This document shows, piece after piece, positions 55,459 to 64,000 of a stretch of DNA of 64,000 bases. Under the pieces are notes generated by a model. It made no database searches, was not told the DNA's origin, and saw nothing but the letters and a program-made list of their open reading frames with translations. Location of the stretch: NCBI GenBank assembly GCA_947088865.1, contig CAMUHY010000002.1, positions 124,001 through 188,000 of the forward strand. Direction: 5' to 3'. Source of the stretch: an uncultured Eubacterium sp. (GTDB taxonomy: Bacteria > Bacillota > Clostridia > Lachnospirales > Lachnospiraceae). Every line of letters begins with the position of its first letter. Positions within the stretch are counted from its first letter, which is position 1. The position numbers and the translations under genes were made by a program.

Positions 55459-55539
55459 TCCTCGACCTCCTTTGCAATTACATTGTATTGGAAATCAGGA
55501 AAAACTTATAGTTTGCGACCGGGTACATCGTACAACGCA

Positions 55540-55577
55540 AAAAAAACCTTGAAAGGTTTTGTCCTCTCAAGGTCTTA
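55540..55577. terminator. Hairpin upstream of the zinc-ribbon gene
   Basis: AAAACCTT and AAGGTTTT pair over GA, and CCTTGA/TCAAGG can pair alternatively, giving two competing structures. It lies between int and the zinc-ribbon gene. The rest of 55459-55917 is non-coding, with several GATGTAA direct repeats (near 55638, 55649, 55870 and 55879), which could be integrase arm sites. Confidence 0.5.
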
Positions 55578-55917
55578 AATACAAAATTATGCGATTTTTT
55601 CATCTCTGCACAAATCTTTGTACCGTTTGATGTAAGTTTGATGTAAAGATGTAATTTTCGGCGTTTCCCCAAGTCCGCAGACCCGCATAAATAGGGACTT
55701 TTTAGCCTTTTTCGTTCGGTAAGGACTTCATTGTCGGAACGAAATCGGTCATATTGATATTGACTTCTGCCAATCCCTACAATGCTCTTTATCCTATATT
55801 ATCAGATTTACAACCAATTACTTTCCCTACCTTACCCAGCCATCAACGGGACGAATGGTGTAAAATTTGATGTAGATGATGTAAATGTTTCTAACCGTTT
55901 TCTGTTTTCATAAAAGA

Positions 55918-55960: not shown

Positions 55961-57196
55961 CTACTCATTTTTGAAGTATAAGTCAAGCCCCTCAAATTCG
56001 GAACGCTTCAGTTCCTTTGTCACATCGGTGTAGATATTAAGCGTTGTGGAAATATCCTTGTGACCGATTGCGTCCTGAATTACCTTCACATTCACTCCTG
56101 CTTCACACATTCTTGTCGTGAATGTATGCCGGAGAGAATGGCAGCTAAAGTGCGGCAGCAATACCTCTGCATTTTCGTCTTTCAATAATTGTTCGTCATT
56201 ACAGTCCCGAATAATCCGGCGGATTGCTTTATTCAGCGTTGACTGATGTTGCGCCTGCCCGAAGCGGTTAATAAATATGAAATCACTGTATCCGTCAATA
56301 ACCACTTCGCAATGCAAATCAAACATTTCCTGCCTTTCCTTTTCCATAAGGAAGGCTTCTTTTACAAAATCAAGCATTGGAACTTGCCTGTTGCCCGCCG
56401 GAGTTTTCGTTGTATTCACATTGAAATAGCAGCCTTTCTTGCTGTCATCGGTTCGATGATCGTAATAAACCAAAGTGTGATTGACATCAATAACGCCTTC
56501 TTCCAAATCAATATCGCACCATCTCAATCCGGTTACTTCGCCAACTCGTAATCCCGTACCGACCATTACTGCAAATATCGGATACCAGTTTTGTGCTTTC
56601 GGCGTATTCTTCAGATAGTCAAGAAACAAATCCTGCTCAGGTCTTGTTAATGCCCTGCGTTTTTCCGTCTTAAAAACATGGGATTTTTTCAGCTCTCTCA
56701 GGACATTATCAGACGGATTGTTCCGAATGTAATCATCATCAACCGCCATATCCAAAATCTGATGAAGCACGGTATGGATACTGTCAATCGTAGAAGCCTT
56801 TAACCCTCTTTCATCGGCAAGATAATTATAATACCTCTTGACATCAGATTTTTTCAGCGTTGATATGCGCTGTTTCCCGATGTTAGGGCGAACGAAAGTC
56901 TCATACATATATTTATAGTTTTCAAAGGTATTATTTTTCAATCCTCGTTTCAGAACTTTCCATAAATCAAAAAGTTCATTTACCGTAGTATAGCGGGCTT
57001 CGGTCTTAATGCCGTCGCTTTTATCTTTTGCAATCTGTTCTTCCTTTGCACGAAGATCGTCCAAGTTCCTTGCATAGACATATCGCCTTTTTCTGTTTGC
57101 GTCCATCCAAGAATATTGGTAAGTGCCATTGCTTCTCTGTAATTCCCCAGTACGAAGAACCACTCTTGATTTATCTTTTCTCTTTTCCTTAGCCAT
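55961..57196 (-). CDS. int: Tn916-type tyrosine integrase
   Basis: About 411 residues. The N-terminal arm-binding domain (RVVLRTGELQRSNGTYQYSW) is of the Tn916 Int class, then a SAM-like core-binding domain (about 80-165) and a catalytic domain. Visible catalytic residues are Arg in GTGLRVGEVTGL, His-x-x-Arg in HSLRHTFTTRM, His in GHKDIS, and Tyr in TLNIYTDV. ATG at 57196 has AGGAGG 8 nt upstream; the extra GTG-led codons overlap that site. It is intact. Partial copies of its end lie at 44842 and 47260. Confidence 0.95.
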   Translation of the reverse strand: MAKEKRKDKSRVVLRTGELQRSNGTYQYSWMDANRKRRYVYARNLDDLRAKEEQIAKDKSDGIKTEARYTTVNELFDLWKVLKRGLKNNTFENYKYMYETFVRPNIGKQRISTLKKSDVKRYYNYLADERGLKASTIDSIHTVLHQILDMAVDDDYIRNNPSDNVLRELKKSHVFKTEKRRALTRPEQDLFLDYLKNTPKAQNWYPIFAVMVGTGLRVGEVTGLRWCDIDLEEGVIDVNHTLVYYDHRTDDSKKGCYFNVNTTKTPAGNRQVPMLDFVKEAFLMEKERQEMFDLHCEVVIDGYSDFIFINRFGQAQHQSTLNKAIRRIIRDCNDEQLLKDENAEVLLPHFSCHSLRHTFTTRMCEAGVNVKVIQDAIGHKDISTTLNIYTDVTKELKRSEFEGLDLYFKNE

Positions 57197-57208
57197 TATC
57201 CGCACCTC

Positions 57209-57783: not shown

Positions 57784-58578
57784 TTATACTGAGTACATAT
57801 TCGCTATGTACTCATCAAAGACCTGCCGTTTAATCAATCTTCGATTTCCAATCCACAGGACAAAAGGACAATTATCCCGGCTTGTCATTTCATATAATTT
57901 GTCTCTGCCAATTCCGGTATAAGCAACGGCTTCCTCAATAGAAAGATTTGTCTTGTGCCACAATGGAACTTCATATTTGGGCTGCTTTGCCTTCTTATTA
58001 TCATTCATAAGTCTGCCCCCCCCCTTGTCCACGGTGGAAGTGCGTCTTTCATAAATGATATAATCCCAGCCCATATTGTCGCACTTATCGCATTTCTCCC
58101 GTTTGGAAGCCAGCGGATCAAGCCGCCTGACAATATAATTCTGTGTATTCTTATATGCCTGTAAGCAGGCGGGACAAAGGCAACGAATATCCCCCTTATG
58201 CTTTTGCGGCTTATCCACCCACAAGCCGAGTGCTTTTTTCAGACCGCAATTAACCTTATGGAGCAGATACTCGCTGTCAACAAATCCGATATACTCCACA
58301 AGCTCAGACTGATTGACTGTTTTCAGTTGTTCAAGCATAACCATTGAAGGCTCTTTCATCCCATATTTATCTTCCAAAATAATATGGGACGGTAAATAAC
58401 GCTTCTTTATTACTGATGTAATTGCTGCAACAATCGTTGTCGTGCTTGCCTGATTGCCCTCCTCGCATTGAACCACAAGAACAGGTCTTACCCCATTTTG
58501 GATTGAGCCTACATTGTTTCCAAAGTCATGCAGATAAATTTCCCCACGCCTCACTTTTTCTTTATTCTCTGTTTGCAT
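57784..58578 (-). CDS. PemK/MazF-like toxin fused in frame to a third Xis across a poly-G tract
   Basis: A 264-residue frame. Residues 1-115 are MazF/PemK-like (RRGEIYLHDF, NGVRPVLVVQCEEGNQ, ATTTIVAA), an mRNA interferase fold. Residues 120-185 have CLCPACLQ and KCDKCDNMGW, a zinc-ribbon. After a tract of nine G (58016-58024) comes MNDNKK, aligning with the start of xis 2, and a full Xis domain (LSIEEAVAYTGIGRDKLYEM). The Xis also has its own ATG at 58008, with the G-run as a ribosome-binding site. With eight or ten G the toxin frame stops within four to eight codons, so the fusion depends on tract length. Confidence 0.8.
   Translation of the reverse strand: MQTENKEKVRRGEIYLHDFGNNVGSIQNGVRPVLVVQCEEGNQASTTTIVAAITSVIKKRYLPSHIILEDKYGMKEPSMVMLEQLKTVNQSELVEYIGFVDSEYLLHKVNCGLKKALGLWVDKPQKHKGDIRCLCPACLQAYKNTQNYIVRRLDPLASKREKCDKCDNMGWDYIIYERRTSTVDKGGGRLMNDNKKAKQPKYEVPLWHKTNLSIEEAVAYTGIGRDKLYEMTSRDNCPFVLWIGNRRLIKRQVFDEYIANMYSV
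58016..58024 (-). repeat. Homopolymer G9 tract at the toxin/xis junction
   Basis: Nine consecutive G on the coding strand, 7 nt before the ATG of the third Xis. One base less or more closes the toxin frame, with ATGA-type overlap at eight. The tract could mediate slippage, serve as a ribosome-binding site, or be a sequencing length error. Confidence 0.85.
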
Positions 58579-60375: not shown

Positions 60376-61263
60376 TTATACAAAATACTTACCTTTACAT
60401 TTTCCGCAATCGGAACACCCATTGCAGATCAGCCTACTTCCGCATTGCTCACAATTACTCCGATAATGCGATACATACAAATTTTCTTTTGGAACCAGTT
60501 TGCCAAAGGGATCAGTCAGCTTCCAGTCTATCGGCTTGCCCTCACAATTCATTCCCGATTTATACGCCATTTCACTTTGTATTTGCTTTTTCGGAATGTG
60601 ATAGCGTTTTCCATCCTTGATAAAAACTGTCCCTGTTTCAATAAAGCAGAATGTAATATTATGAGCAACGCACTCCGCCTGTAAAGACTTTACCCAATCA
60701 AAGTTACACGGTCTTGCGCCGTCATAATTTTCGCCGCCGCAAATTACCTGTTCAATCACACCGTCGCCAAGATATTTTTCAATACTGACCGCACCAATGA
60801 ACGGAGCGCACATGATTCCTTTATGCTTAAAAGGCAGTTCCTTCAATATCGGAATACGCTCGTCGGCTCTGTGCTGATTCTCACAGGTAACATTAAACAT
60901 TATATTATCCCAGCCATCGCCCCAATCTTTCGGCAGGCATTTTTCCACTCTCTGCGGGCGTTTCGTCAGCAGAAAAAATTTCACATCCGGGCGACGGCGT
61001 ATCATATCCCACGCTTCTTCACGCCAGTTGTCAGCCTCCTCTAAAAAGAAATCAGAGGACATACAGACACGGATTAGCTCGCCGCTTTTGATTTTATAAC
61101 CGCCGTCACGCTGTTTTTGAATCGGATAACGAAAGCCCGATTTTGTGCGGTATATATCAGCGCCGTTTCGCTCCCGCACACGGTCAAGAAAATACATATA
61201 GCAGTGCTGACAACCCTCGCTGCATTTCACACAGCCGTGCCACGGATTCCAAATATCGTGCAT
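60376..61263 (-). CDS. DUF5131 (phage Gp37/Gp68-type) protein
   Basis: A 295-residue protein. The N-terminal IWNPWHGCVKCSEGCQHCYM has Cys spaced CxxxCxxC, as in radical-SAM enzymes, and the DUF5131 core follows: RVCMSSDFFLEEADNW, FFLLTKRPQRV and ICGGENYDGARPC. The C-terminus ends in a cluster of Cys (CEQCGSRLICNGCSDCGKCKG) that looks like a zinc or iron-sulfur knuckle. Function is not established for the family. Its GAGGTGA site overlaps the sirtuin stop, and the gene starts 5 bp later, so it is translationally coupled to the ADP-ribosylation genes. Confidence 0.88.
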   Translation of the reverse strand: MHDIWNPWHGCVKCSEGCQHCYMYFLDRVRERNGADIYRTKSGFRYPIQKQRDGGYKIKSGELIRVCMSSDFFLEEADNWREEAWDMIRRRPDVKFFLLTKRPQRVEKCLPKDWGDGWDNIMFNVTCENQHRADERIPILKELPFKHKGIMCAPFIGAVSIEKYLGDGVIEQVICGGENYDGARPCNFDWVKSLQAECVAHNITFCFIETGTVFIKDGKRYHIPKKQIQSEMAYKSGMNCEGKPIDWKLTDPFGKLVPKENLYVSHYRSNCEQCGSRLICNGCSDCGKCKGKYFV

Positions 61264-61267
61264 AGCG

Positions 61268-62137
61268 TCACCTCAAATCAGAAAGAACCGTCCCAATATC
61301 ACTGTCAATACAAATGGACTGTGCCTCAATCTCTTTCGGGCAGACTGCTTCCCCATAATTTACACAAGCATAGACCGCCTCGCTGTTCTGTGCTGTCATC
61401 TGCCAAAACGGATATTTAATAATAACCGGAGTATTGTAGCCCACGCCAAGCTCCAAAAACAGGATTTTCTGATTTTTCCTTGTCCGCAGGAAGTTTTCGT
61501 ATCTCTCAGTGGCGGCAATCCAGCCTTCGTCCTCAACAAATTTATCGTCCGAGCGCAGATTCATTGTCAACGGCTTCCCGCATTTCGGACATTTCGGAAT
61601 CAGTTCCGCAGGGATTTTCATATCCTTTTGTTCGTCCATCATACGCCGTATGATTTCTTCGTTATCGTAGGTATCTATATCGCATGGAACGCTGCATTGA
61701 AACAGTCCGTAATCTCCCTGTGTGTAAAACAAACGCTTTTTGTCAAAGCCCGCCTTCTGAAAGCAATGATCCACATTGGTGGTAATGACAAAATAGTCCT
61801 TATCCTTTACAAGCTCAAAAAGCTCCTGATAGATCGGTTTTGGAGCGTCCATATAGCGGTTCACATAGATATACCGGCTCCAATACGCCCAATGTTCCTC
61901 CGGCGTTTTGTACGGATAAAAACCGCCGGAATACATATCGTGAAAGCCATATTTCTCCTCAAAATCCGAAAAATACTCGTGAAACCTCTCGCCCGTATAA
62001 ACAAATCCTGCGGAAGTGGAAAGACCTGCGCCTGCGCCGATCACAATGGCGTCGGCAGATTGGATTGATTCTTTCAGGCGGCTAATTTGTTCGGAGTAGC
62101 TTTTTGTAGATTTCGTAGTCCAAATCCTTGAAAACAT
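61268..62137 (-). CDS. Class M sirtuin (SirTM-like), predicted ADP-ribosyltransferase
   Basis: A 289-residue NAD-dependent enzyme. The Rossmann start IVIGAGAGLSTSAGFVYTG and the TTNVDHCFQKAGF motif are of the SirTM class. Where ordinary sirtuins have the catalytic His of HG, the sequence reads FYTQGDYG, so Gln replaces it; SirTM proteins transfer ADP-ribose in place of deacetylating. A zinc motif CPKCGK is present with a degraded second pair. AAGGTG 6 nt upstream supports the ATG at 62137, which overlaps the macrodomain gene by 56 bp. It pairs with the macrodomain gene, as in Staphylococcus and Streptococcus. Confidence 0.92.
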   Translation of the reverse strand: MFSRIWTTKSTKSYSEQISRLKESIQSADAIVIGAGAGLSTSAGFVYTGERFHEYFSDFEEKYGFHDMYSGGFYPYKTPEEHWAYWSRYIYVNRYMDAPKPIYQELFELVKDKDYFVITTNVDHCFQKAGFDKKRLFYTQGDYGLFQCSVPCDIDTYDNEEIIRRMMDEQKDMKIPAELIPKCPKCGKPLTMNLRSDDKFVEDEGWIAATERYENFLRTRKNQKILFLELGVGYNTPVIIKYPFWQMTAQNSEAVYACVNYGEAVCPKEIEAQSICIDSDIGTVLSDLR

Positions 62138-62861
62138 TAAATATCACCTTGATTTCGCTTTGTTTTTGCGCCATAAATTCCGTTACAGTCTGTATGGCGA
62201 TTTCGGCTGCACGGTCGTTTGGAAAATGAAACTCGCCCGTAGAGATACAGCAAAATGCAATGCTGTTTATTCTGCTCAGTGCCGCAAGCTCCAAGCAGGA
62301 ACGGTAGCAGGACGCAAGCAGTTTTTCATCTTCCTTTGTCACACAACCTTTCACGATTGGACCGACTGTGTGAAAAACATAATCGCATGGAAGATTATAG
62401 GCAGGTGTGATTTTGACTTTACCCGGTTCTTCATCAACGATCTGTTCCAGCATAATATCCGCACAGGCAAGGCGCAACTGAACACCTGCAAAGGTATGGA
62501 TGGCATTGTCAATACAGCCGTGATTCGGGCAAAAGCAGCCAAGAAGCTGTGAGTTTGCGACATTAACGATAGCGTCACACCGAAGCGTTGTAATATCCCC
62601 CTGCCAAAGGTAGAGATTATCCTTTTCAGGCGATAGATCTTCCAGTAGCGTTATCCCTTTCCGTGCGGTTTCCTCCTGCAAATACTCATCCTGTACTTGC
62701 AAAAATTCCTCTGATACAGGCTCCGGCATACGGATATTAAAAAGCGAACGCAGGAGCTTCTTTTGCTCATCAGCGTTCGCTGGAATCTGCATATCCGCAT
62801 ATTTCGGCTGCTCTGCGAGCAATGCTTTGATTAAGAAAATCCTTCTTTCCGTTTGATTCAT
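62082..62861 (-). CDS. Zinc-containing macrodomain protein (protein-ADP-ribose hydrolase)
   Basis: A 259-residue macrodomain protein of the SirTM-linked, zinc-dependent type. Nucleotide-binding DAIVNVANSQLLGC, zinc-ligand stretch CFCPNHGCIDNAIHTFAG and the catalytic loop SISTGEFHFPN (here CCISTGEFHFP) are visible. It reverses mono-ADP-ribosylation made by SirTM. The N-terminal 70 residues are helical. The start overlaps the ferredoxin-fusion gene by an ATGA junction, and the 3' end overlaps the sirtuin gene, so the three products are made together. Confidence 0.93.
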   Translation of the reverse strand: MNQTERRIFLIKALLAEQPKYADMQIPANADEQKKLLRSLFNIRMPEPVSEEFLQVQDEYLQEETARKGITLLEDLSPEKDNLYLWQGDITTLRCDAIVNVANSQLLGCFCPNHGCIDNAIHTFAGVQLRLACADIMLEQIVDEEPGKVKITPAYNLPCDYVFHTVGPIVKGCVTKEDEKLLASCYRSCLELAALSRINSIAFCCISTGEFHFPNDRAAEIAIQTVTEFMAQKQSEIKVIFNVFKDLDYEIYKKLLRTN

Positions 62862-63478
62862 TTGCCGCCTCGTTTCCCAACTGCATGAACAGGGCAGTTT
62901 TCATAACAGTTTCCGCAGTGCAGACAATGTTCCTGCCGGATAAAATAAGGCTTGCCCTGCGTAATGCACTGCTGCGGACAGCCACGCTGACATTTCCCGC
63001 ACCCAATACAGCTATCGGTGATAACATATCCTTTTTCGGAAAGCGTTCCCGCTCCAAGCGTATAACTTTCCCTGAAAATCGGCTTTACGCCAAGATTGAA
63101 GTATTCAATCTCTGCATCTTTTATCTCGAAAATAATCCCTATTTTTCGGGTATCGCCCGGATAAACATTTGAGAGGTAGGGCTGCTCTGCAAAAATCGTG
63201 TTGATTTTTTCTTCCTGCTCCGATTCGGGGGCAGGCTGCGCCTTTGCTGACAGCCGTATCATTTCTTTGAAACGGGTATAGGCGAGTATCTGTACCTTTC
63301 CGTTCTCAAGAAGCTCTTGGCAAAAGTTTTTTCCTCTTGCAGTAAAGAAATAAAAGCTGTCGCTGTCATAATGAATTGCGCTGATACAGCGAATTTGCGG
63401 ATTGCCCTCGCTGTCAACGGTTGCAAAGGACAAAACGCCGACAAGCTTCAATTTTTCCATACAGGTTTTTGCGTCCAT
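62858..63478 (-). CDS. FMN split-barrel (PNPOx-like) / two-[4Fe-4S] ferredoxin fusion
   Basis: A 206-residue protein. The N-terminal 120 residues are a pyridoxamine-oxidase-like FMN barrel (GVLSFATVDSEGNPQIRC, FYFFTARGKNF). The C-terminal end carries two ferredoxin motifs, CIGCGKCQRGCP and CLHCGNCYENCP, for two 4Fe-4S clusters. It is likely an electron-transfer partner or flavin reductase. ATG at 63478 lies 9 nt after AAGG; a GTG at 63487 is an alternative. It is placed between a nitroreductase and the macrodomain gene, with ATGA overlap to the latter. Confidence 0.88.
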   Translation of the reverse strand: MDAKTCMEKLKLVGVLSFATVDSEGNPQIRCISAIHYDSDSFYFFTARGKNFCQELLENGKVQILAYTRFKEMIRLSAKAQPAPESEQEEKINTIFAEQPYLSNVYPGDTRKIGIIFEIKDAEIEYFNLGVKPIFRESYTLGAGTLSEKGYVITDSCIGCGKCQRGCPQQCITQGKPYFIRQEHCLHCGNCYENCPVHAVGKRGGK

Positions 63479-63497
63479 ATACACCATCCTTCCTAAA

Positions 63498-64000
63498 TTA
63501 TTTTAGCGGTGCCTGATTATAGAAACAGGTCTCGCTAAGCGGCTTCCTGTGGCAGCCGAGTTTGATATTCGGTACAAAATCATCTGCCGGATAGCCGACA
63601 TAAAGCATACACACCGGCTGCCATGTTTCGGGAATCTTCAAAAGCTCTTTTGCCTTATCTTCATCAAAATAGCTGATCCATACCGTTCCAAGACCAATAC
63701 TTGCCGCTTCCAGCATCATATGTGTGGCGACAATCGTTCCGTCTGTCGCTCCGCTACTTTTTCCGCTCTGCGGGTGTGTCCAGCAGGCAGTTTTGTCATA
63801 ACACACAAACAGTACAAGTGGTGCGCCGTAGTAGAGATTGATTTTTCCATGCTCTTTATCGTCGCACTCTTTCGATAAATCCACATACTTCTGATCGTAA
63901 CCGAAAGAGCAGAACTCCTTGACCTTCGCCAGATTTTCAGGCGTATTCAGTATAATGATTCTTTGCGGCTGTGCGTTTACCGCAGTAGGCGACCATCTGC
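63498..64000 (-). CDS. Nitroreductase family protein, partial (5' end cut by window)
   Basis: About 166 C-terminal residues of an FMN nitroreductase. The frame enters the window in RWSPTAVNAQPQR, the conserved phosphate-binding segment near the N-terminus, continues through VDLSKECDDKE, and includes THMMLEAASIGLGTVWI and the end KPLSETCFYN. About 35-60 N-terminal residues are outside. It uses NAD(P)H to reduce nitro or quinone substrates. It is the first visible gene of the five-gene operon, with 19 bp to the next ATG. Confidence 0.9.
   Translation of the reverse strand, partial: RWSPTAVNAQPQRIIILNTPENLAKVKEFCSFGYDQKYVDLSKECDDKEHGKINLYYGAPLVLFVCYDKTACWTHPQSGKSSGATDGTIVATHMMLEAASIGLGTVWISYFDEDKAKELLKIPETWQPVCMLYVGYPADDFVPNIKLGCHRKPLSETCFYNQAPLK

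Follow-up and report, generated by a model that had tools for sequence, protein, structure and literature searches.

Which protein does a class-M sirtuin (SirTM) modify when the only substrate known for its family is not found in the genome that encodes it? This question is raised by a stretch of 64,000 nucleotides (hereafter the window) from an uncultured Eubacterium sp. of the Lachnospiraceae (contig CAMUHY010000002.1, positions 124,001 to 188,000), in which bases 60376..64000 carry five coupled minus-strand genes, including SirTM and a zinc-macrodomain protein (Zn-Macro). The lipoylated carrier GcvH-L was described as the only known SirTM substrate and the targets of other SirTM/Zn-Macro systems were stated to be unknown (PMC11490716, 2024). 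The operon described here encodes an ACGX-repeat peptide with its radical S-adenosylmethionine (radical-SAM) maturase, several redox enzymes and a divergent HxlR regulator. We propose, with a probability of about 0.62, that it is an HxlR-controlled operon for thiol or electrophile stress, in which SirTM and Zn-Macro would form a switch independent of lipoylation. At the level of the system, unlike that of the target, this reading is well supported by sequence, and judging from gene content the locus is a recurrent SirTM/Zn-Macro variant that does without lipoylation and is integrated in ACGX peptide operons of Clostridia.

Open reading frame analysis together with Pfam and NCBIfam profile searches recovered all five genes, each in the family given by an initial annotation of the window: nitroreductase, fusion of a flavin mononucleotide (FMN) domain and a ferredoxin, macrodomain, sirtuin and DUF5131 protein (Table 1). 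The coordinates reproduced the reported overlaps of 4 bp between the fusion and macrodomain genes and 56 bp between the macrodomain and sirtuin genes; the DUF5131 gene starts 4 bp past the sirtuin end. The operon continues past base 64000, and the five-gene set is the 3′ half of an ACGX operon that starts with acgA at window-equivalent position 67370 (window numbering continued beyond its end). This operon has nine genes from acgA to the DUF5131 gene, or ten if the gene for a Cys-rich KTR protein is counted, with intergenic gaps of at most 22 bp from the maturase gene acgM downward. The KTR gene belongs to the mobile element described below and its membership in the operon is uncertain. Past the HxlR gene lie the remnant of a CHAP-protein gene and then lysS. 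The maturase (TIGR04340) and the adjoining peptide (TIGR04341) both scored above their curated cut-offs, which makes this an ACGX system. The initial annotation had correctly recognised a SirTM/Zn-Macro operon with redox genes, but it missed the ACGX peptide, the maturase and HxlR because these are located beyond the end of the window.

SirTM and its eraser Zn-Macro look intact, since key residues, the family score and the zinc motif are kept. SirTM residues Q140, N121 and R195 were invariant across 15 aligned rows and aligned with Q, N and R of PDB entry 5a3a; in SpySirTM, mutation of Gln137 (which replaces the deacylase His), Asn118 or Arg192 led to a dramatic drop in activity (PMC4518038). 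The zinc motif GCFxPxHxCIDN (Cys-His-Cys) of the macrodomain aligned with PDB 8rsi. The overlap between the two genes is not due to chance, because 41 of 52 homologous macrodomain-first pairs overlapped alike, by 44-74 bp. A second, diverged SirTM/Zn-Macro pair is encoded in the same genome (L005 7294-9520, G000:C21); it follows a BFD-like [2Fe-2S] protein (PF04324, 61 bits), in a stretch that yielded neither HxlR nor an ACGX maturase. Locus L072 (5806-7600) has two extra, very diverged SirTM-like frames with long tree branches near its ACGX maturase, on the opposite strand. A protein of 180-326 aa (cluster k16, five loci; L153 6358-7146 and relatives) lies between HxlR and the macrodomain-SirTM pair in L146, L153, L158 and L160; the single member that was scanned had no Pfam match. 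An apparent macrodomain-SirTM fusion in L096 was discarded, as its frame crosses a run of N.

Neither GcvH-L nor the lipoate ligase LplA was among the genes read in the operon (stretch L004). The initial annotation had seen none beside it, and reading 5′ of base 64000 bore this out. The genome itself (99.98% complete) contained no GcvH domain (PF01597) above the cut-off, the best match being 20.3 bits within a 1203-aa frame. Genomes with both ACGX and SirTM numbered 34, counting G155, where SirTM is fragmented, and G026 and G037, where it is on the opposite strand. The Pfam GcvH cut-off (22.2 bits) was passed in 7/34, with 22.0-24.8 bits over 39-60 of the 122 model positions in frames of 123-186 aa; we infer that these seven matches are biotinyl domains. 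Lipoate ligase (TIGR00545, E 1e-10) was found in none of the 34, the Eubacterium genome included, although a very diverged ligase could escape the model; the same search gave matches in 7 of 14 control genomes, three of them above the cut-off. Because no convincing GcvH and no lipoate ligase were found, lipoyl-GcvH-L is very unlikely to be the target here, which supports the earlier suggestion that the target may differ from lipoylated GcvH-L. As the only known target was not found in this genome, the SirTM family is predicted to have, probably, a second kind of target.

The peptide was a candidate for this role. The maturase scored over 350 bits at 91 loci; searching for xCG repeats and an ACGX-like composition, a filter that favours these letters but not the spacing, recovered a peptide at 85 of these and none at six (L077, L091-L094, L096). 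Among the 474 Cys of 80 distinct peptides, the residue four positions downstream was Asp in 252 cases, Cys in 190 and Glu in 8, so the repeats are of the form CX3D or CX3CX3D. CX3D/E repeats beside a SPASM radical-SAM enzyme correspond to the sequence definition of ranthipeptides. In such a system, PapB forms a bond between the Cys and the Asp beta-carbon of CX3D (PMC9413430), and a linkage of this type would leave the Asp carboxylate free. AcgM scored only 64.7 bits against the PapB equivalog model NF047865, far under its cut-off of 340, and is not placed in the PapB family by this model. The literature search returned no paper on ACGX peptides, judged by titles and the openings of abstracts, despite the curated NCBI models.

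The region between HxlR and acgA contains a conserved operator-like motif. Of 64 distinct intergenic stretches, whose kinship means that the counts are not independent, 59 contained GTGCGTACT and 10 contained GTTAC-N6-GTAAC. Spaced inverted repeats were commoner than in base shuffles, the best occurring in 16/64 stretches versus at most 3. The 11-mer AGTGCGTACTT, with at most one mismatch, lay within 900 bases 5′ of the maturase at 72 of 80 distinct ACGX loci, 44 of them exact (77/85 before five doubly sampled loci were dropped), against a background of about one match per 10 kb on both strands, calculated over loci that include ACGX loci. A second candidate operator in the same genome (C12:43129, two mismatches) was rejected: it lies inside a long glycosyltransferase-like frame and is at chance level, the reversed-pattern control giving 3 and 4 matches. 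The N-terminal Cys of HxlR stood in the context CPVA in 68 of 71 proteins and CAVA or CDVA in two (L076 was unclear). The corresponding Cys of DUF24-family regulators is a sensor of electrophiles or oxidants (PMC7835342).

To define how often these genes occur together, the ACGX maturase was searched (TIGR04340, E 1e-80) in genomes of the same family and class. It was found in 54/397 family genomes (51 above the cut-off) and 19/391 class genomes (16 above), the Eubacterium genome being in both sets, and the neighbourhoods of all 56 family places and all 19 class places from other genomes were examined. Among loci that combined a radical-SAM frame scoring over 350 bits with 3.5 kb or more of downstream sequence, a count that omits lower-scoring and cut-off loci, SirTM was located downstream on the same strand in 39 of 59 (29/47 in the family set and 10/12 in the class set, six of these ten from one family, f20); a looser count gave 31/48 in the family set. 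The 59 loci also had a macrodomain (26), a divergent HxlR (49), a PNPOx-ferredoxin (37) and a nitroreductase-type protein (37), the last two at low thresholds. The annotated order on a Roseburia plasmid is the same in outline: HTH, acgA, acgM, nitroreductase, 4Fe-4S protein, protein-ADP-ribose hydrolase, Sir2 and DUF1848. The redox genes and DUF5131 (or DUF1848) thus do co-occur with SirTM in other genomes, as the initial annotation had anticipated. PNPOx-ferredoxin proved weak as a SirTM-specific partner (p 0.053); the same tests gave 0.053 for the nitroreductase type, 0.02 for HxlR and 0.33 for the quinone oxidoreductase (five tests, uncorrected for number and kinship).

A scan starting from SirTM, with a 15-row alignment against named genomes, gave a complementary view. 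It covered the best 80 loci of at least 598 matching stretches (at least 526 encoding relatives) and is biased to near relatives. Among these best 80, many cut by contig ends or short, an ACGX maturase was present at 20 and a macrodomain above 150 bits at 58. Removing identical and short rows left 17 ACGX-linked loci, 37 without ACGX and with at least 4 kb upstream, and 22 cut short. ACGX was rejected as a universal SirTM partner on the basis of the 37 loci without it. In a tree of 84 SirTM proteins from the family and scan sets (46 linked, 38 not; 22 cut-off loci and four rows with ACGX on the other strand omitted), the ACGX label required 18 changes, and a single ACGX-linked clade was rejected by the approximately unbiased test (p-AU 7e-9; quick tree, simple model). 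In a 110-row tree, at least seven label changes were forced by the starred branches alone. Judging from these trees, the ACGX-SirTM linkage is one that was gained or lost many times. The literature search gave no paper linking the ACGX system to SirTM/Zn-Macro; part of it was one broad search judged by its top-ranked papers only.

The mechanism that we propose has the following steps. The conserved N-terminal Cys of HxlR would serve as the sensor for an electrophile or oxidant, upon which HxlR would derepress the promoter via the conserved operator. AcgM may then crosslink the ACGX peptide at its CX3D repeats to give a ranthipeptide-like, cysteine-rich product, around which the flavin and Fe-S enzymes of the operon would move electrons. 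By analogy with their families, SirTM would add ADP-ribose to an acidic residue of an operon partner and Zn-Macro would remove it, so that the pair could act as an on/off switch as it does for lipoyl-GcvH-L, but with no lipoyl carrier involved. SirTM of the known system modifies GcvH-L, with Asp27 as the likely site, and the macrodomain reverses the modification; both enzymes act on acidic residues (PMC4518038). Since the CX3D carboxylate would be left free, the matured ACGX peptide stands out as the leading candidate partner, with the Asp of CX3D as the site; even so, it is only a tentative choice, most of the remaining odds being shared by the PNPOx-ferredoxin, a nitroreductase and HxlR itself. 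The full proposal, in which SirTM reversibly ADP-ribosylates the matured peptide on the CX3D Asp, Zn-Macro erases the mark and the peptide replaces lipoyl-GcvH-L, is slightly more doubtful still. If true, it would provide a second SirTM substrate and make ADP-ribosylation a switch on a ribosomally synthesized and post-translationally modified peptide. The operon gives a short list of co-encoded SirTM candidates in bacteria without a detected lipoate ligase, and the question of the target can therefore be addressed with purified proteins. The ACGX peptides in turn gain a likely physiological setting, HxlR-controlled redox stress.

Several observations weigh against an HxlR-controlled stress operon in which SirTM acts on a co-encoded partner. 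SirTM of the known system is GcvH-L-specific and requires prior lipoylation (PMC4518038). Twenty of the 59 ACGX loci have no downstream SirTM, and the peptides of loci with and without it are alike (Asp at +4 for 204/373 vs 65/130 Cys); a difference between the two groups was looked for and none was visible. A downstream macrodomain is missing from 13 of the 39 SirTM-positive ACGX loci (e.g. L049, L059, L063, L086-L088), SirTM therefore being tied to ACGX more often than its eraser is. Of the 37 genomes with an ACGX-less SirTM locus, only seven had an ACGX radical-SAM gene anywhere, five of them above the cut-off. Finally, the 24 loci where HxlR and SirTM occur without intervening ACGX were split: AGTGCGTACTT with at most one mismatch was present in the HxlR gap of 12, exact in eight (L113, L121, L132, L150, L158, L160, L164, L166), and missing from the other 12. 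A divergent HxlR is directly followed by the macrodomain-SirTM pair at some ACGX-less loci (L157, L164, L166). A common type of regulation for SirTM and ACGX is probable, and it speaks for co-regulation as much as for a direct link.

In the strongest alternative, SirTM/Zn-Macro forms a module of its own within the HxlR regulon and acts on a protein elsewhere in the cell, such as a housekeeping or redox protein; it would share the ACGX operon only because the same stress calls for both. Co-regulation by HxlR alone could account for the ACGX-SirTM linkage; the operator-like motif at ACGX-less units, the scarcity of ACGX in their genomes and the second SirTM pair beside the BFD protein all agree with it. 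On the other hand, the same-strand linkage, the 18 changes in the tree and the tight overlaps with redox genes suggest more than co-regulation. We regard a separate module as possible, at less than half the probability of the integrated stress operon.

A much less probable explanation is an anti-phage cassette, in which SirTM would consume NAD+ (nicotinamide adenine dinucleotide) or mark a phage-sensing protein and DUF5131 or DUF1848 would be a radical-SAM effector. PADLOC models do match DUF5131 (candidate defence models PDC-M30B/M41B, 97-101 bits) and DUF1848 (RTasDUF1848 of DRT systems, 130 bits), and AcgM gave weak matches to the pVip viperin models (48 and 30 bits), read as common radical-SAM sequence. 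The operon is also mobile, with a G+C content of 43.6% for the element and 46.1% for the operon, versus 35.4% for bases 1-55000 of the window. Against this, none of the PADLOC models matched SirTM, the macrodomain, the flavin enzymes or HxlR, and the recurrent core consists of HxlR and redox genes, DUF5131 or DUF1848 being present at only 8 of 39 SirTM-positive ACGX loci.

DUF5131, included in the system by the initial annotation, is not its core partner. In the three sets of SirTM-bearing loci, DUF5131 lay within 3 kb of SirTM at 1/33, 2/80 and 2/12 (the 80 being the best of the scan), and DUF1848 at 6/33, 8/80 and 1/12. Since 127 of 299 family genomes have DUF1848, and mostly a single copy of it, chance adjacency to SirTM should be rare. 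None of the 20 SirTM-less loci of the 59-locus count had either protein, against 8 of the 39 with SirTM (p 0.04, uncorrected). Outside that count, DUF1848 was found near ACGX maturases without visible SirTM: at L095, L207 and L213 it was several kb off or on the opposite strand, and at L215 it was directly downstream of the maturase, where the contig ends. Tentatively, both proteins are optional SirTM accessories. Each has the CX3CX2C motif expected of radical-SAM enzymes, near the N-terminus in DUF5131 and near the C-terminus in DUF1848, invariant in seven aligned rows each. A profile comparison of the two aligned only the CX3CX2CY segment (probability 4.6%, not significant). Their predicted structures had a confidence (pLDDT) of 68.6 and 76.9, with motif regions below 50; a PDB sequence search with both gave no credible match, and no paper on either was found in the literature searched. 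Relatives of DUF5131 with 74-79% identity are present on IMG/VR contigs labelled viral (L220-L223); beside the one in L221, on the other strand, lies a macrodomain protein, and L220 has a short SirTM-like stretch (66 bits) unrecognised by Pfam. The Eubacterium genome has a DUF1848 gene at G000:C2:217628-218410, about 26 kb beyond the ACGX operon.

That the known system works in trans, with SirTM modifying a lipoylated GcvH-L encoded elsewhere, has very little probability: GcvH-L is the sole known SirTM substrate (PMC11490716), but the GcvH and TIGR00545 searches described above led us to reject it. An equally slight chance is left to a fortuitous assembly of cargo without functional integration, for although the operon lies within a decayed integrative element at lysS, this view is refuted by its recurrence in many genomes whose flanks, as far as covered, lack that integrase, across further families of the class (10/12) and on a Roseburia plasmid.

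The element is about 13.7 kb long between two direct repeats. The left repeat matches the right one (window-equivalent ~69116-69464), which holds the lysS 3′ end and therefore suggests site-specific integration of the element there. The initial annotation had described a Tn916-type setting, and this was confirmed as far as the integrase and Xis domains are concerned (PF02920, PF09035), but conjugation genes are missing and the setting is rare among relatives: an integrase like that of the window occurred in flanks of up to ~10 kb at 1 of 56 family ACGX loci (this one) and at 0 of 19 class loci. In the scan set, two ACGX loci had weaker integrase matches (L099, 177 bits; L148, 80 bits). Between the operon and lysS no conjugation module was seen, except for the CHAP-protein remnant of 332 aa. 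In a Monoglobus record, a longer relative of it (569 aa) stands at the end of a VirB4/VirD4 module, and tet(O/32/O) and tet(40) come next; the claim that the operon occupies the tet(M) cargo slot agrees with this order, but not with the missing conjugation genes. One open frame at 57784-58578 joins a PemK/MazF-like domain to a Tn916-type Xis domain, with two more small genes adjoining that look xis-like by eye.

Table 1 Coordinates of the ACGX-SirTM operon and of the surrounding element. Positions beyond 64000 are window-equivalent.
Feature	Position	Strand	Evidence and remarks
Left direct repeat of element	55501..55738	.	79 bp at 85% and 155 bp at 94% to ~69116-69464
Tn916-type integrase	55961..57205	-	PF00589 106 bits; PF02920 62 bits
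Cys-rich KTR protein, 68 aa	60164..60370	-	PF14205, 103.9 bits; 5 bp after DUF5131
DUF5131 protein, 295 aa	60376..61263	-	PF07505, 137.8 bits; C14, C18, C21 of CX3CX2C
Class-M sirtuin SirTM, 289 aa	61268..62137	-	PDB 5a3a, 249 bits, E 6e-73; N121, Q140, R195
Zn-macrodomain (protein-ADP-ribose hydrolase), 259 aa	62082..62861	-	NF003163, 357 bits vs cut-off 272; PDB 8rsi, 288 bits
PNPOx-like FMN domain fused to ferredoxin domain with two 4Fe-4S motifs, 209 aa	62858..63487	-	PF01243 42 bits; PF00037 42 bits in two stretches
Nitroreductase, 199 aa	63498..64097 (window ends 64000)	-	
Fd-nitroreductase (Fe-S), 294 aa	64115-64999	-	
Quinone oxidoreductase, 323 aa	65022-65993	-	
Radical-SAM/SPASM maturase AcgM, 350 aa	65990-67042	-	TIGR04340 "ACGX system", 590.3 bits vs cut-off 400; SPASM PF13186
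ACGX-repeat peptide AcgA, 73 aa	67149-67370	-	TIGR04341, 98.4 bits vs cut-off 28
Operator-like motif	~67451		
HxlR regulator, divergent	67638-67970	+	PF01638, 103 bits

Among known systems, the locus resembles the extended SirTM operon of Staphylococcus and Streptococcus, which consists of GcvH-L, LplA2, Zn-Macro, SirTM, OYE and LLM (PMC4518038, PMC11490716). Both have a SirTM with the Gln/Asn/Arg residues, an overlapping Zn-macrodomain gene, flavin oxidoreductases nearby and a link to redox stress. Unlike the extended operon, the present one has no GcvH-L, in a genome with no GcvH above the cut-off and no lipoate ligase found, and it comprises instead an ACGX peptide, a radical-SAM maturase, nitroreductases, a PNPOx-ferredoxin, a quinone oxidoreductase and HxlR. 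No OYE or LLM oxidoreductase is among its genes, as Pfam assigns the operon oxidoreductases to the nitroreductase, PNPOx, Fer4 and ADH families. The lone or 'minimal' SirTM/Zn-Macro pairs (PMC11490716) likewise occur without GcvH-L, whereas here the pair resides inside a defined, recurrent peptide-maturation operon. As in the ACGX system of NCBI annotation (TIGR04340/TIGR04341; acgA, acgM), peptide and maturase are above the cut-offs; what differs from that system as documented is the linkage to SirTM/Zn-Macro, for which the literature searched held no paper. The CX3D spacing and the SPASM radical-SAM enzyme resemble the PapA/PapB ranthipeptide system (PMC9413430), with crosslinks that are predicted here, although AcgM falls well below the PapB equivalog cut-off. 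Lastly, the HxlR regulator is not of the Cys-x-Lys formaldehyde-bridge type, because CPV is found at the Cys site, and it shares its conserved N-terminal Cys with the HxlR/DUF24 electrophile sensors (PMC7835342).

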